NCBI GenBank assembly: GCA_018673485.1 | Contig: JABHCP010000021.1 | Location: 1-40,574 of the forward strand | Source of the DNA: Candidatus Uhrbacteria bacterium | GTDB lineage: Bacteria > Patescibacteriota > Patescibacteriia > UBA9934 | DNA: 40,574 nucleotides | Reading direction: 5' to 3' | Part shown: positions 16,533 to 34,380 of the stretch, piece by piece | Position numbering within the stretch: position 1 is the stretch's first letter | Layout: every line of letters begins with the position of its first letter | Program-made: the position numbers and the translations under genes | Notes under the pieces: generated by a model | Database searches by the model: none | The model's input: only the letters and a program-made list of their open reading frames with translations | Told to the model about the DNA's origin: nothing

Positions 16533-16561
16533 TTGACAAAGTCGTGATTTTGTGTTATATT
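16533..16561 (+). promoter_or_regulatory. Sigma70-type promoter of cassette 1: TTGACA-17-TATATT
   Basis: ttgaca 16533-16538, 17-nt spacer, tatatt 16556-16561. Confidence 0.8.
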
Positions 16562-16572
16562 AATCCTCCGTT

Positions 16573-16716
16573 ATAGCTGGCTAGAGAGCCAGTTTTCGGG
16601 TGACAACGCGTTGTTGGATGCTGGGGCGGTGTGACACTTTCGTCATATCCGTTCTGTCTGCCAAGGCGCGTAGTCCACCCCGTTGCCTCACGAGAGGGAC
16701 GGGGATAGGAGTCGGT
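16573..16716 (+). promoter_or_regulatory. Structured 5' leader of cassette 1, homologous to the leader at 20803-20947
   Basis: Shared blocks atagctggc, gttgttgg, tggggc, gttctg(t)ctgccaaggc, and cctca..gagaggg; terminal hairpin ccccgt-tg-CCTC-acga-GAGG-g-acgggg. Confidence 0.65.
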
Positions 16717-17811
16717 ATGAGTGAAAAGATCAACGCGATGATCGCGTGGATTGCCAAGAACACGGTTCGGGTTGCTCTGGGCCTGTTCGTTATCGTAGGT
16801 GCGTTTTTCGTACTCTACCTCAACCTCAACTCGTGGGAAGACCTGTCGGTCATGAACAAGATGCTGATCGCGCTTTTGCCGGTCGTTAGCCTGTCCCACA
16901 CCATCCTCCACGCCGTTGGTGAGATGGTCAAGAGTGATGCGGGTAAGACCCAGGTCTCTGACCTGGAGGGTCTGATCGAGCGTCACGAGGGCCAGATCAG
17001 TTCTCTCGAGAACCAGTTGTCCGAGAGTCGCAATTCTCTGGCAACTAAGGAGGCTGAGATCGTGAAGCTCAAGAGCACGCTTAGGGATATGAGCGGTATG
17101 AGCAATACGATGTGGAATGACCTCGTGTGGTTCCTCGGTGACAGTGTCAAGGGTCGTGTGAAGCGAATGGTCGACTTCGGCAATTGGCTCAACGATCGTC
17201 CCGAGTCGCTGAACGCCCTGGCTGACACCTTCTCCTTGCCCAATGGAAGGGGAGCAACGCTCCAGACCTTTAACCTGATCAAGGAAGACTTCATGCAGGG
17301 TTACGAGCTCTGGGATAGGAAGCGTTCCCGTGAGGCCTTTGAGCTCTCGGAAAAGCTGGACCTTTCCCGTAAGTGGGTTCGGCGGCTCATGCACCAGATC
17401 TTCAACACAGTCGGCTTCCTGAACATGGAGAAGGGACTGTCGGATGACATCCGAGACATGCAGGATCAGATGGTTCTTCGTGTGTTGGAGGCTCTCACAG
17501 AACTCATCCCGGCTCACAGAGAGCTCTACGTCGAGAACGAGTACCGCTCCTACTCGGATGATACGCGTTGGTGCACCAACCTCAACCAGGAGGGCGTGCG
17601 TTACGCACTGGCCATGGGATTCGGAGCTTTCGGAAACCAGCCAGACGCTGTCAGCAAGATCCTCTGCGACCTCAAGGTGCAGAAGTCTGATCAGTTGATG
17701 CCGCTGTTGGAGCAGATGCCTGACGATGTCTACCGATTCCTGACCAAGGTCATGATCGATCCGGCGAGTTTCACTTCGGTCCCTGAGACCGATTCGCCCG
17801 CGGCCGACTAG
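16717..17811 (+). CDS. ORFan membrane/coiled-coil protein (cassette 1), 364 aa from MSEKINAMIAWI
   Basis: SD-like aggag upstream; hydrophobic N-terminus, then coiled coil; diverged paralogue of 20948-22033; GC-rich relative to flanks. Confidence 0.75.
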   Translation: MSEKINAMIAWIAKNTVRVALGLFVIVGAFFVLYLNLNSWEDLSVMNKMLIALLPVVSLSHTILHAVGEMVKSDAGKTQVSDLEGLIERHEGQISSLENQLSESRNSLATKEAEIVKLKSTLRDMSGMSNTMWNDLVWFLGDSVKGRVKRMVDFGNWLNDRPESLNALADTFSLPNGRGATLQTFNLIKEDFMQGYELWDRKRSREAFELSEKLDLSRKWVRRLMHQIFNTVGFLNMEKGLSDDIRDMQDQMVLRVLEALTELIPAHRELYVENEYRSYSDDTRWCTNLNQEGVRYALAMGFGAFGNQPDAVSKILCDLKVQKSDQLMPLLEQMPDDVYRFLTKVMIDPASFTSVPETDSPAAD

Positions 17812-18102: not shown

Positions 18103-18486
18103 TCAGAGGACCCTCTCGCTACGAACGATGGCCATGTGTGCCATTACGCTCGTCCGGACGGTGTCCCATTCCAGATCCCAGGAGGACGGAATGGCGTCCA
18201 TCACCTTGAGTGCCCAGAGCATCAGGTGATCGAACTGCTCGAGCTCTTCCTCGTTGCACGCCTCGGCGAGCGAGTCGATGCCGTTCTCGCAAGCGCTGTA
18301 GGTACGCGGCATGAGCTGCGCGAACAGGAAGTCGATGATTGACTTGTGCTCGCCCAGGTCGTTGCGCCGCCACCTGAGCACCTTGCTGCGCAGCACGCTG
18401 CCAAGGTATGCGTCAGACTTGGTGAGTGGGTGGCCTTCCACCGGCTTGATCACCAGGTCGAGGAGTAGGCTGAGGTCTTGTGACAT
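18103..18486 (-). CDS. ORFan protein (cassette 2), 127 aa
   Basis: SD-like acggagaaata upstream of ATG; dedicated promoter and terminator; GC-rich. Confidence 0.65.
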   Translation of the reverse strand: MSQDLSLLLDLVIKPVEGHPLTKSDAYLGSVLRSKVLRWRRNDLGEHKSIIDFLFAQLMPRTYSACENGIDSLAEACNEEELEQFDHLMLWALKVMDAIPSSWDLEWDTVRTSVMAHMAIVRSERVL

Positions 18487-18652
18487 TATTTCTCCGTTGA
18501 GTGCTTGCGCACCTTTGGGAGTTCTTTAATGTCCGCTGGCGCGCGTTGGGGGAGCGAATCGACACCATGCCGATCAGCCGAAAGTCGACTAGGTCGTATA
18601 GGTCAAGTTTCACCTCGCGGTTTGGGTTTGTGCGAGAGACTCGCGACAGTAA

Positions 18653-18681
18653 AATATAGCATGAAAAAGCCATTTTGTCAA
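18653..18681 (-). promoter_or_regulatory. Sigma70-type promoter of cassette 2: TTGACA-17-TATATT
   Basis: Reverse complement reads ttgaca-aaatggctttttcatgc-tatatt. Confidence 0.82.
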
Positions 18682-18789: not shown

Positions 18790-20580
18790 GTGGATTTTCG
18801 AAATATTGCCATTATTGCTCACGTTGATCACGGAAAGACAACGTTAGTTGACGCCATGCTAAAACAGTCTGGTGCTTTTTCGCAGCGTGAAGAAGTTGTT
18901 GAACGCGTAATGGACAGCAACGATCAAGAGCGCGAGCGTGGAATTACCATTTACGCAAAGAATACAGCGATTCGAATTGGTGAGACAAAGATAAATATCG
19001 TCGATACACCAGGGCACGCAGATTTTGGGTCAGAGGTAGAGCGTGTTTTGCGGATGGTTGATTCAGTATTGTTGCTTGTGGATGCTTACGAGGGTCCAAT
19101 GCCACAAACAAAGTTTGTTCTGCGTAAATCACTCGAGCTTGGGTTGAAGCCGATTCTCGTGATCAATAAAATTGATAAGCCGTCAGCGCGTCCCGAGGAA
19201 GTGCTTAATATGGTGTTTGATTTATTCTCTGAGCTTGGTGCAACAGAGGAGCAGTTGGATTTTGAATATATTTACACAAACGCTAAGAGTGGAGTTGCGA
19301 AGAAAGAGATTGATCAAGAGAGCGAAGACTTACAGCCTTTGTTTGATTTGATTCTGGACAAGGTGCCATCAGCTAAGTCAAACACAGAGGCACCAATGCG
19401 TATGCAGCCAGTGAACTTGGCATATGACAACTTTGTTGGTCGTATGGCGCTTGGTCGAGTGTATGAAGGTACTGTAAAGGTTGGAATGCCAGTTACGGTT
19501 ACAAAACATGACGGTAAAAAAGAAAAGCAAAAGATTACAAAAATATTAACGTCAGAGGGTTTGCAGAAGATGGAAGTAAAAGAAGCAATTGCGGGAGATA
19601 TTATTTCAATCGCTGGAATCCCAAACATTAACGTTGGTGAGACAATCTCTGAGGACCCTGATGCGGAGATTCTGCCATTTATCCACATCGACCCACCAAC
19701 TCTGTCAATGACATTTTTAGTTAACAACTCACCATTTGCTGGACGTGAAGGTGATTATGTTACTACTCGTCAGATTCGAGAGCGTTTAGAGCGTGAGCTC
19801 GAGACCAACGTTGGATTGCAGATTCAGTTTCCAGAAAACGCAGACACGTTCGATGTTAGTGGACGTGGTGAAATGCATTTGGCAGTTCTCATCGAGACTA
19901 TGCGCCGTGAAGGATATGAGCTTCAGGTTAGTCAGCCAAAGGTGATTATGCACGAGGAAGACGGAAAGACACTGGAGCCATACGAGAGCGTAGTTGTAGA
20001 CGTGCCGGATGAGTATTCAGGAGTTGTTATTGAAAAGCTAGGAAACCGTAAGGGGGAGATGCTGGGAATGAACAGTGAGAATGGTTCAACTCGATTAGAG
20101 TACAGCATTCCAACTCGTGGACTGCTCGGATTCCGTATGGAGTTTATTACTGCAACAAAGGGTGAGGGAACTCTGTCTCACATTTTTGAAAAGTATGGTG
20201 AGTTTAGAGGTGATATTAGCAAGCGCACAACTGGATCGATGATTTCTGGATTTGACGGAAAGACACTTGCGTATTCATTAAATACCCTTCAAGATCGCGG
20301 AACATTGTTTATTGGTGCGGCACAAGAGGTTTACGAGGGTATGGTGATCGGAACGAGTTCAAAGAACTCAATCACAGTGAATCCAACTAAAGGAAAGCAT
20401 CTAACAAACATGCGTTCATCAGGAGCTGATGAGGCAATCAATCTCACACCGCCACTAGACATGAACCTAGAGCGCGCACTCGAATACATCGAAGATGACG
20501 AATACGTAGAGGTTACCCCAAAGACAATCAGAATTAGAAAGAAGTTACTAAAAGAAAACGAACGCAAACGTCAAAAATAA
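18790..20580 (+). CDS. typA: Ribosome-associated GTPase TypA/BipA (GTG start)
   Basis: [57 protein letters not shown], and full-length similarity to the family. Confidence 0.97.
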
Positions 20581-20692: not shown

Positions 20693-20802
20693 AAAAACCG
20701 CAGTTCAATCGAATTGTGGTTTTTTGTTTGATTGACCAATTTATTTTTCTGATATACTTTTAAGTGCCGATTGTGAGTGTGGAGCCAGTTGTCATTAAGG
20801 TG

Positions 20803-20947
20803 ATAGCTGGCACAAACTTGCACGGATGACAGTGTGTTGTTGGGTAGTGGGGCAGTTTCGGCGATGTTGTCGATTTTGTTCTGCTTGCCAAGGCATGCAA
20901 TTCCTAGCTCGGTGCCTCATGGAGAGGGCTGAGCAACGGAGTTAAAG
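20803..20947 (+). promoter_or_regulatory. Structured 5' leader of cassette 3, homologous to 16573-16716
   Basis: Shared blocks; terminal hairpin gctcgg-tg-CCTC-atgga-GAGG-g-ctgagc with different pairs from leader 1 in the lower stem. Confidence 0.65.
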
Positions 20948-22033
20948 ATGAGTGAAGACAAAAAGGTCGAAGTCCCTGTTCTCGAGCCGTTCCCTCAAGT
21001 GCCCATCGTGAACATGCCGGAGCCGAGTTTCCTCATGAAATACGGTGTTCAGTGTGCTTGGATCTGGGTAGCTATCTGTGTTGTGGCCACGGGGATCACC
21101 GCAGTAGTTTTCAGCGAGACTGTCGATTTGGAGATGTCTTTGTTCGCTGCTATTCTCATCGCGTTGATTGTTATCAACTCAGTTGTGGTAGCAGCGGTTG
21201 CCACAGTAGGTAAATTGTATTGTACCCGCGTCGAAAAACTTTTGTGGGACAGGGTTCGAGATCGTAATCAAGTAATTGAGGACTTTCGAAGCATGTGCAT
21301 GACTAAGCACGAGCTCTACGTCGAGGCCTGGACTCAGGTTCAGGAGAATCAGGAGCTCATTGGTTCGCTCAACAATCAGGTCGGAGATCTTGGGCAAGGA
21401 CTCAATGATATGTTCGACCTTCTAGTTTGGATCGTCAATGCTGACCACGCTGAGTTCATGGAGTGGTTCTGTGAGTGCGATACTGAGTGGGACCTTGCTC
21501 CTTCCGTGGTTTCGCGAGATGGTCCCGAGTACACCGACACCCTTCACGCTATTAAGGCACAGTATTTCGACGAGCGTGATAGTTGGCGGGAAATCAAGTA
21601 TGCGCAAGAGGTCAAGCTCAATCTTGAACGGAGTTTATCGCACAAGGCGCTTCTGGCACTCATTGAGTTTGTCATGATTGTGGCAGTGGAAGCTACCAAG
21701 ATCGAAGATACGCCCGATGAGATGAAATCCCAGATGGATCAGTTGTCGTTGGCGGTTTTTAATATCTTCGCCAAGCTCGTCTCCACGCATCGTGAGCTCC
21801 ACGCCAACGAGGTGACGCGAGCGGATGGTGATGAATGGGTGGTCAATAATATCGACTGCGGACTCCTTTGTGCCCTGGGTGCCAGGCAGAGTAAGCCTCA
21901 TGAAATCCAGAAGCTTCTGAACCTGCTGCGTGAGCATCAGCCCAAGAAGTTCCTCGAAGTGCTCAATGGCATGCCTGACGATATCAAGCTCGTCCTGACC
22001 AGTCTCATGATTCACGCTCCTGACAAGTGGTAA
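20948..22033 (+). CDS. ORFan membrane/coiled-coil protein (cassette 3), 361 aa
   Basis: MSED start, TM segments, coiled coil; C-terminal VLNGMPDDIKLVLTSLMI parallels LLEQMPDDVYRFLTKVMI of cassette 1. Confidence 0.78.
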   Translation: MSEDKKVEVPVLEPFPQVPIVNMPEPSFLMKYGVQCAWIWVAICVVATGITAVVFSETVDLEMSLFAAILIALIVINSVVVAAVATVGKLYCTRVEKLLWDRVRDRNQVIEDFRSMCMTKHELYVEAWTQVQENQELIGSLNNQVGDLGQGLNDMFDLLVWIVNADHAEFMEWFCECDTEWDLAPSVVSRDGPEYTDTLHAIKAQYFDERDSWREIKYAQEVKLNLERSLSHKALLALIEFVMIVAVEATKIEDTPDEMKSQMDQLSLAVFNIFAKLVSTHRELHANEVTRADGDEWVVNNIDCGLLCALGARQSKPHEIQKLLNLLREHQPKKFLEVLNGMPDDIKLVLTSLMIHAPDKW

Positions 22034-22392: not shown

Positions 22393-22896
22393 TTAGGCTT
22401 TGTCAGCCTTCATATAGCACAGGGTGTGGTTGTGCCACTCCCAGCCACCTTTGCTTGCCTTTACTGACGCCGACATGACCAACTTTTCTCGGAGTTCGAA
22501 TACGAGGAGGTCGTGAAGGATCTTGAAGGCGGCGCTGGCGTCCTCGGTGCTTTCCAGGGTCAGGCTTTGGGTGAGCGGTCCATAACTTAGATGGACCGTG
22601 CGTCCCATGTTTTGCCACAGGAATGGGAGTATACGAGCGGGGCTCCAATTGGTCAGGAGCGCGACAGCCATACGTCCAGGTTGTGGCGTGTGAGGCACGG
22701 TATTGCGGCCGTTGAGCACCTGCTTCACTGCTGTGACTAGCTTGATGGCAGCCGCAGCATCAATGTCACTGCGCAGATCAGCTGTTCTTACGACTTTTTG
22801 GTTCGAACCGTCACCTTTCCGATAACGGATTTCGAGGTATGGTGAGTGAGTGCCTTTTTCTTCGTGTACTCGAATCAGGACGCTGTTGCTGGCCAT
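22393..22896 (-). CDS. ORFan protein (cassette 4), 167 aa
   Basis: SD-like ctggaggaacc-ATG; dedicated terminator; GC-rich. Confidence 0.7.
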   Translation of the reverse strand: MASNSVLIRVHEEKGTHSPYLEIRYRKGDGSNQKVVRTADLRSDIDAAAAIKLVTAVKQVLNGRNTVPHTPQPGRMAVALLTNWSPARILPFLWQNMGRTVHLSYGPLTQSLTLESTEDASAAFKILHDLLVFELREKLVMSASVKASKGGWEWHNHTLCYMKADKA

Positions 22897-26068: not shown

Positions 26069-26728
26069 CTAGTCCACGACACGAAGAGGTGTTTCGAAGT
26101 CGTAGCGCACAGACGCTTTATCGGTTTCGTGACTCTCTTCTTTGGCGTGGAACAGCAGACCGTCAGCACGCTTGATAGCCAGCTGTAGGGCTTCGTGCTC
26201 ACCTAGAAGCGTGCAACCAGCAGAGATGGTGACGCGCAGTTCTGAGTCTACTCGGCACCACGCGTCGTCTAGAACGCGACGAATGATGGTGTGCAGAATC
26301 TGTGCATTCGGTGCACTGAGAACCACCCAGAATTCATCTCCTCCCTCGTTGGGGCGGACGACAATGTCCTCTGGACGTAATGCTTCAAGGATTTTGCTAG
26401 AGATGAACCGGATGATTGCGTCGCCCTCGTCGTGACCGTGGTTGTCGTTGACTGACTTGAAGTTGTTCACATCGATCACCATGACGAGGATGGGGTTACC
26501 ATTTCTTCCCCAACGAAGTCGACGCCGATCAAAGTTCGTTTCAAGCCATCGTCTATTGGCGAGCCCCGTCATGAAGTCGTGCATCATGTTGTGCTTGAGC
26601 TCAATATTCTCAATGCTTAGCCGATAATGCTTCCAAGCAAGCACGATGTAGAGCGTGGTAAGGATCAGCGCAAAACCTATAGTCGATAGGGATGCTGCCG
26701 CGGCGACTGCGAGTAGAATTTCTGGCAT
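26069..26728 (-). CDS. Membrane-anchored GGDEF-domain (diguanylate cyclase-like) protein (cassette 5)
   Basis: N-terminal TM; HDFMTGLANRRWLE, VIDVNNFKSVNDNHGHDEGD, RPNEGGDEFWVVL, TISAGC. Confidence 0.92.
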   Translation of the reverse strand: MPEILLAVAAAASLSTIGFALILTTLYIVLAWKHYRLSIENIELKHNMMHDFMTGLANRRWLETNFDRRRLRWGRNGNPILVMVIDVNNFKSVNDNHGHDEGDAIIRFISSKILEALRPEDIVVRPNEGGDEFWVVLSAPNAQILHTIIRRVLDDAWCRVDSELRVTISAGCTLLGEHEALQLAIKRADGLLFHAKEESHETDKASVRYDFETPLRVVD

Positions 26729-29625: not shown

Positions 29626-29937
29626 CTAGTTGATGCCGAAGCCGATGTCGCGGATGTGTGGATCGGGATGATCGACTTCGATGGCCTGTAGGTCGTTGTT
29701 CGCGGCCATGATCATCATGACCACGAAATCGATCATCGAGTCGGTCAGCGGCTCGTCGAAGAAGAGCTCGCTCTCTCCGTCGATGTAGACACGGCGCGAT
29801 CGTCCGCGACGCATACCGAACTCCATGAACATGCTGTTCTGGTTCTTGTCGAAGATGATGCGTGTGCCGACTCGTACTCTGGTTGACGAGTTGTCGTCAA
29901 AAGTGAGGAGGAAAGGTTCTATGATGCGAGACGCCAT
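29626..29937 (-). CDS. ORFan protein (cassette 6), start MASRIIEPF
   Basis: SD-like cggagagg upstream of internal ATG at 29937; the ORF-track start at 30003 lies at the -10 box and is therefore unlikely. Confidence 0.65.
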   Translation of the reverse strand: MASRIIEPFLLTFDDNSSTRVRVGTRIIFDKNQNSMFMEFGMRRGRSRRVYIDGESELFFDEPLTDSMIDFVVMMIMAANNDLQAIEVDHPDPHIRDIGFGIN

Positions 29938-32950: not shown

Positions 32951-33832
32951 ATGAGCGAAGATGTCGTACCCTTGGAACCCAAGAACCCAGTGAACAGGCG
33001 GAAAATGATGGCCTGGGCACGTGGGAAGGTTCAAGATGAGCTTGATGCTGCGAAGTGGCAGGTAGATCTTGCCAATACAAAGGCGCGTCGGGCTAGGCTT
33101 TGGGCGATAGCTTTTGCTGTGCCGTCCTTGGCCGCTGTTGCCGCTGCGACCACTGGTCTGACTGCTTGGGCTGGGTACTCGGTACTCCAGTCACAGTACA
33201 GCCTAGATCATCTGAGTCCGGCAGAAGTGTGTGCTGATCATGACATGGTACCGGCGCTCGACTTCAGCACAGGTTCGAACTTCACCGATGCGTGCATGGA
33301 GCCCGTGTTGTTGGGAGATGATGAGCTGGAGACCTGGTCATACAACTTGTGGTTTTACGCGCAGGATGTCGATGGCTGGTGGCCGATACCAAGCGATGCG
33401 TTGCATGCCTTCAACTTCATTCCGCTTGTCAGCGAAGGTCAGCGAGCGCGCTACGCGCAGGAAAGTGACGATGAGTTGTTCCGAGAGGACTTTCGACAGC
33501 TCGAGGCGCTGTGTGCCCTGGGTGGCGGTCGTCTGATTGCGCGAAGTGGCGGCAGTCTCGAGTTCGATGGAGTTTTCAATCGTAAACAAGGTTGGAGTAT
33601 CCAAGGAGTCGAGTCTCATGTCGAGGCTTTCACTTGGTGTCAGGGTGTTATCGAGCCTGGGAAGATCTTCCACTATGCACCCAAGGCACGTAGGCCTTAT
33701 GAGAAGTGTGAAGGTGAGCAACCAGAGAAAGGTGAAGCGGACACTCGTAAGTGCTCTTGGGTCGTTCTCGAGGACTATGACAACTCGCAACACATGACGG
33801 TCGTTGCGACTAACGCAGTGCTGCACTTCTAG
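32951..33832 (+). CDS. ORFan single-TM protein (cassette 7), 293 aa
   Basis: SD aaggaggg upstream of ATG; TM segment AFAVPSLAAVAAATTGLTAWAGY; dedicated terminator; GC-rich. Confidence 0.75.
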   Translation: MSEDVVPLEPKNPVNRRKMMAWARGKVQDELDAAKWQVDLANTKARRARLWAIAFAVPSLAAVAAATTGLTAWAGYSVLQSQYSLDHLSPAEVCADHDMVPALDFSTGSNFTDACMEPVLLGDDELETWSYNLWFYAQDVDGWWPIPSDALHAFNFIPLVSEGQRARYAQESDDELFREDFRQLEALCALGGGRLIARSGGSLEFDGVFNRKQGWSIQGVESHVEAFTWCQGVIEPGKIFHYAPKARRPYEKCEGEQPEKGEADTRKCSWVVLEDYDNSQHMTVVATNAVLHF

Positions 33833-34014: not shown

Positions 34015-34380
34015 ATGACTACCCGGAAGCCCGCGCACGAAGCACTACTCGATCACCTGAACCACCTGGTCGCTCAGGGTGGGCTGGCAGAGCCCGAGAA
34101 GGGAGGGCAGATGCAGTACCGCGAATTCTACGCCCTGTCAGGGCTCAAGAACCGCGTGAACAGCGTCGCGATCCCCAACGGCAACGGCGAAGCGCGCGAG
34201 ATCGCGCAGCAGATCAACCAGCGGCTGAGCAAGCTCTACGAGCTGGCCATCGACCCCGGGGTCGGCGAGGAGATCACGGCCATGATCGAGGGCCTCACCA
34301 GCGACTACCTGGTGAGCGAGCCGGTCGCCATCATCCCTCCGCGTTCGAGCGCCGAGAACATCGGCATGTCCGACATCTAG
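34015..34380 (+). CDS. ORFan protein (cassette 8), 121 aa
   Basis: SD taggaggtatcgcatc-ATG; strongly GC-rich (38 of 60 nt are G/C in 34021-34080 by hand count). Confidence 0.75.
   Translation: MTTRKPAHEALLDHLNHLVAQGGLAEPEKGGQMQYREFYALSGLKNRVNSVAIPNGNGEAREIAQQINQRLSKLYELAIDPGVGEEITAMIEGLTSDYLVSEPVAIIPPRSSAENIGMSDI

Follow-up and report, generated by a model that had tools for sequence, protein, structure and literature searches.

A conserved structured leader RNA, predicted to pair its own Shine-Dalgarno sequence, precedes GC-rich cassettes in Candidatus Uhrbacteria

The window analysed here is a whole 40.6-kb contig from the 1.03-Mb genome of a Candidatus Uhrbacteria bacterium, a member of the host-dependent, ultrasmall and mostly uncultured Patescibacteria. 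Its resident genes have a guanine-cytosine (GC) content of about 40%, and they are broken up by scattered single genes of 50-60% GC. Two of these GC-rich genes, both on the plus strand, encode the homologous proteins of cassette 1 (16717-17811; 364 amino acids) and cassette 3 (20948-22033; 361 amino acids), and both look foreign. Each is preceded by a leader, leader 1 and leader 3, and an earlier note made from the sequence alone had read the two as a cis-regulatory RNA that is riboswitch-, thermosensor- or attenuator-like. These leaders, and the fold they appear to share, are the subject of this work.

The two leaders align over about 125-145 nucleotides (nt), as the note had claimed, and their folding z-scores against dinucleotide shuffles are -3.25 (leader 1) and -5.69 (leader 3). 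A first covariance model (CM), built from these two sequences with one leader 3 loop base omitted to aid alignment, finds only two matches inside the window, the other GC-rich cassettes being without the motif. Across the order it finds two clear copies, one in Ca. Uhrbacteria RIFOXYB12_FULL_58_10 (G061:C21, L010/L094; E 1.3e-11; hereafter U061) and one in nzgw368 (G062:C87, L011/L105; E 1.4e-8; hereafter U062). These outside copies belong to another family of the same order, also Ca. Uhrbacteria, and have folding z-scores of -4.28 and -3.26. The covariance search that the note had proposed thereby yields two independent homologous leaders in which the stems are kept. At the DNA level (blastn), U061 and U062 share a leader block of 153 nt with 72.5% identity (E 6e-18) and almost no match in the coding sequence. 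The leader is the longest conserved DNA block in the matching cassette comparisons, and cassettes 1 and 3 have 41 nt of coding sequence in common as well.

Wider searches added little. The two-leader CM found no copy in the other 22 genomes of the window's own family, where it gave two weak non-matches, and a plain DNA search of the leader within the family returned nothing real. A CM of all four copies was run on 73 genomes of the order, 383 of the class and 382 of the phylum, and turned up nothing else convincing; the class and phylum searches score only about ten candidates per genome, and distant copies may be missed. A pattern scan of GTDB returned 30 stretches; by CM, the two Uhrbacteria copies alone score among them. 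In IMG/VR a degenerate pattern gave 73 stretches with no true copy by CM and a fixed-gap pattern gave none, while leader 3 had no match among plasmids. Several weak CM matches were discarded: L013 and L119 fall within coding regions (by eye, DUF192-like and phosphomannomutase-like open reading frames), L012 is antisense within a long open reading frame, L036 is on a phage contig and has a broken core, and L008, L009, L117 and L118 are without the core. The element, present in 3 of the 73 genomes of the order, is therefore rare and confined to one order as far as seen.

The comparison shows a compact predicted fold, in which a variable 5' hairpin, P1, is followed by a three-way junction closed by a short helix, P4, with two arms: P2, a long hairpin in which most of the conserved sequence is found, and P3, a hairpin of variable sequence whose pairing is conserved. 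Each leader folds as the three hairpins P1, P2 and P3. A promoter lies directly 5' of P1 in all four copies, leader 3's being only probable. That of leader 1 spans 16533-16561 (TTGACA at 16533-16538, a 17-nt spacer and TATATT at 16556-16561; 11/12 in a consensus scan), that of leader 3 spans 20732-20758 (TTGACC, 15 nt, TATACT and an extended -10 TGA; recognised by sequence and not called by the consensus scan), and the outside copies have TTGACA-17-TATAGT/TACACT just upstream of the leader. The leader 1 transcript probably starts near 16567, and P1 occupies 16567-16600 in the minimum free energy (MFE) fold. P1 is present in all four copies with variable sequence, and takes a long form in leader 3 (20767-20825, MFE fold). 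P2 extends over 16606-16671 in leader 1, as judged from folds, CM matches and pair counts, and over 20832-20898 in leader 3. The covarying hairpin P3 lies at 16678-16704 and 20907-20934, respectively.

In the four-copy alignment, standard pairs fill 94.5% of pair cells compared with 80.8% in shuffles, 13 pairs are changed on both sides compared with 5.9 in shuffles, and pairing falls to 40-49% when the partners are shifted by 1-3 columns. Because the alignment was fitted to the first, two-leader CM, it is the outside copies and not the two founders that carry evidential weight. Exhaustive helix enumeration finds at least two covarying pairs only in the P2 base, two parts of P3 and P4; column-shuffled alignments give 0.24 such helices per alignment. 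P3 has ten pairs, seven of them double-changed, with 100% of cells paired, and one of its pairs appears as U-A, G-C, C-G and A-U across the four copies. The note's version of this hairpin pairs as written, and its compensatory changes in the lower stem are correct. The P2 base is likewise 100% paired, and P2 keeps UGUUGGRU/UGCCAARG and ACA across families. As in a riboswitch, the 5' untranslated region (UTR) here holds covarying helices together with a conserved core of aptamer-like character, and there is good support for a leader RNA that is conserved, structured and acts in cis.

That the Shine-Dalgarno sequence (SD) itself would be part of the fold is new in this analysis; the earlier note had missed the SD pairing, along with the long central hairpin P2 and the homologues in other genomes. 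A GGAGU SD stands 1-3 nt 3' of P3 in all four copies, and MFE folds pair it in all four leaders. Its GGA pairs a conserved UYC upstream, which takes the form of UCC or a U-rich UUCC/UUCU-type sequence just 5' of P3, while its GU, with the two bases that follow, can form P4 with a strand just 5' of P2, which is UGAC in the window and GAAC in the outside copies. In leader 1 the anti-SD UCC (16674-16676) pairs GGA with a probability of about 0.5, and P4 joins UGAC (16601-16604) to GUCG (16711-16714), so that SD (16708-16712) and P4 3' strand together cover 16708-16714 by predicted pairing and helix enumeration. In leader 3 the anti-SD AAUUCC (20899-20904) pairs GGAGUU with a probability of 0.97-1.00, and UGAC (20827-20830) pairs GUUA (20941-20944), with the SD and P4 3' strand at 20938-20944. 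The four P4 pairs are possible in all copies and two of the four, the outer ones, are double-changed (UG, UA, GC, GC and GC, GU, AU, AU). Single-sequence ensembles split the SD GU between P4 and a longer anti-SD helix. The mean unpaired probability of the SD GGAG is 0.34 in leader 1, 0.006 in leader 3, and 0.046 and 0.047 in the outside copies. The genome's 16S rRNA carries the intact usual anti-SD, GGATCACCTCC, so the leader SD can work. The note gave leader 1 as 16573-16716; its start probably lies nearer 16567, and the structure runs past P3 to the SD.

We consider it probable that the leader is a cis-acting 5' UTR RNA that governs, through an SD-gated junction, how a membrane-anchored coiled-coil cassette protein is translated. 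With the SD on the 3' side of the junction, its GGA bound to the anti-SD at the foot of P3 and its GU drawn into P4, the closed fold would hide the ribosome-binding site. A ligand or factor may then recognise the conserved P2 core, and could stabilise or open the junction and thereby turn translation off or on. Several results weigh against this proposal. The middle of P2 (P2b) is broken in U062. P4 taken alone is only suggestive, with 54 of 500 shuffles as good and only four sequences to judge from. Leader 1 hides its SD no better than shuffles do (110/200, shuffled upstream of the SD) and in the outside copies the effect is moderate (29/200 and 32/200), leaving leader 3 as the only extreme case (1/200 as low); comparative evidence supports SD hiding more than energies do, and leader 1 is where it is weakest. 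Finally, exhaustive enumeration found no conserved alternative (ON) structure with covariation. One alternative 5-bp hairpin (alignment columns 8-12 with 16-20), which occurs in all four copies and excludes P2/P4, showed no covariation and was not used.

The lack of a conserved, covarying alternative, together with the very stable folds, would also suit a constitutive element, in which a rigid 5' UTR would keep translation low or shield the mRNA and would not switch. A stem of that kind would need no conserved primary sequence, yet the P2 core is kept across families, and we regard a constitutive role as rather improbable.

The position of the SD also bears on the other mechanisms that the earlier note had offered. 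P3 is followed by AUAGGAGUCGG in leader 1 and AACGGAGUU in leader 3, neither of which provides a U-tract, and a terminator scan found none at P3; with no U-tract and with the SD within 1-3 nt, a transcription attenuator is not supported. RNA thermometers of the fourU and ROSE types pair the SD with a U-rich anti-SD, and the U-rich anti-SD of these leaders resembles them. They differ in that the leader has a conserved distal core, which would not be expected of a thermometer, and in that its predicted opening is gradual: the SD of leader 3 opens from 0.00 at 10 °C to 0.06 at 55 °C and 0.24 at 70 °C, while that of leader 1 goes the opposite way at low temperature. The model predicts no sharp melting, and hence no release of the SD within a narrow range, between 10 and 70 °C, so that freeing of the SD on warming is a highly improbable function. 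Of the three mechanisms, riboswitch-like translational control fits best, although we infer both the regulation and the ligand.

Translation of the leader and membership of a known RNA family, either of which the note had named as grounds for abandoning its claim, find no support. Stops in the frame of the gene fall inside the leader in two of four copies, which indicates that the leader does not encode an N-terminal extension of the protein. Against Rfam 15 no family reaches the gathering threshold, the window yielding only three tRNAs; at lax thresholds the window leaders give only unrelated weak matches below gathering, and the outside copies give nothing at E<=2.

The encoded proteins are far less conserved than the RNA. 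Those of cassettes 1 and 3 share 22% identity (E 2e-15), the two outside proteins are homologous (E 9e-7), and the two pairs match in the C-terminal domain (profile comparison E 1.9e-4, probability 48%), which makes kinship of the window and outside proteins likely rather than proven. All four have N-terminal hydrophobic segments and a predicted coiled coil, and that of cassette 1 combines N-terminal membrane segments and a coiled coil with a helical C-terminal domain. The alignment of the cassette proteins has no conserved stretch, none of the four has a convincing match in Pfam, PHROGs, PADLOC or NCBIfam, and the cassette 1 protein has no match among phages; AlphaFold2 predicts it as all-helical with low confidence (pLDDT, the predicted local distance difference test, 57). 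A 187-amino-acid probable relative in genome G002 (L123, 1450-2013; E 5.7e-4) has a membrane segment and a similar C-terminus, and its leader is short and without the motif.

Ribosomal-protein leaders are structured leaders with SD control before a single gene. By analogy the encoded protein, or a cassette partner, might bind P2/P3 and repress its own translation, and the leader is indeed found only upstream of one protein family. The gene here is not ribosomal, however, and the conservation is of the RNA and not the protein: blastn returns leader blocks and hardly any coding blocks. The proteins are also membrane-anchored, the database scans found no RNA-binding domain in them, and the G002 homologue does without such a leader. 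We consider autoregulation unlikely. As the RNA core is kept even though only about 20% identity is left between the proteins, a conserved outside ligand or factor is likelier than the encoded protein.

The RNA could instead be the signature of a mobile cassette, either as an element for transposition or recruitment or as an independent RNA, and merely happen to be located 5' of the gene. Its patchy distribution in the order and the placement of GC-rich cassettes within an AT-rich genome are compatible with this, as is a transposase-like gene (L010/L094, 161-1009, minus strand; zinc-ribbon and transposase-type sequence, by eye) just upstream of the U061 leader. The order promoter-leader-SD-ATG is nevertheless fixed in all four copies, and the motif is missing from the other GC-rich cassettes of the window, and there is very little chance that the element is of this kind.

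For SD-gated control, the nearest known way of working is that of the SMK box (SAM-III), in which the SD contributes to ligand binding and an anti-SD hides it (PMC6152003). The likeness to the predicted SD pairing of the leader would be one of analogy, not membership: the leader has no SMK covariance-model match and a different conserved core, is larger with an extra 5' hairpin, and is not upstream of metK or any S-adenosylmethionine (SAM) gene. A three-way junction is also found in SAM-VI (PMC11274715). Rare structured-RNA and riboswitch classes are expected in large numbers (PMC10043782), and like orphan riboswitch candidates the leader is rare, structured, sequence-conserved and placed before one gene family, differing in that it has only four known representatives. 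With four copies and no ligand, the family is a candidate for a new and rare one among translation-level regulatory leaders. It is conceivable, and we suggest it only tentatively, that it is a new riboswitch class of a few Uhrbacteria, in which the SD is itself a junction strand and a conserved metabolite or host-derived signal at P2 gates laterally acquired membrane proteins.

Native gene regulation in Patescibacteria is little known, and the paper found on riboswitches in Patescibacteria proposes them only as candidates for engineered expression control. The element described here is a defined RNA, about 150 nt long, for which a secondary structure and a predicted SD switch can be given, and it is open to assay in standard laboratory strains. 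Should it prove to be a sensor, it would hint at what the cassette proteins do, a family with no assigned function.

The remaining GC-rich cassettes of the window include orphan genes at 22393-22896 and 29626-29937 (minus strand) and at 32951-33832 and 34015-34380 (plus strand). None has a Pfam match, and the three scanned further (22393-22896, 32951-33832 and 34015-34380) have nothing in PHROGs, PADLOC or NCBIfam. In typA synteny, compared with an empty site in view, the neighbours of typA differ in G020 and G006. Cassette 2 (minus strand; a 127-amino-acid orphan), for which no relative was found in the order, is preceded by a separate leader of about 150 nt (18484-18662), whose hairpin is a different one and pairs CUCC with the SD GGAG (folding z -3.32; SD unpaired probability 0.02). 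A GGAG-type SD is present in all eight GC-rich single-gene cassettes (16717+, 18486-, 20948+, 22896-, 26728-, 29937-, 32951+ and 34015+) and missing in 16 of 18 AT-rich window genes tested, with starts taken uncurated from the open reading frame list. Some of the AT-rich genes look leaderless, with a -10-like box near the start, as at 18790. The product of the GC-rich cassette at 26069-26728 (minus strand) is a GGDEF protein (PF00990, E 8.5e-31); its N-terminus is hydrophobic, and it may be a cyclic-di-GMP synthase.
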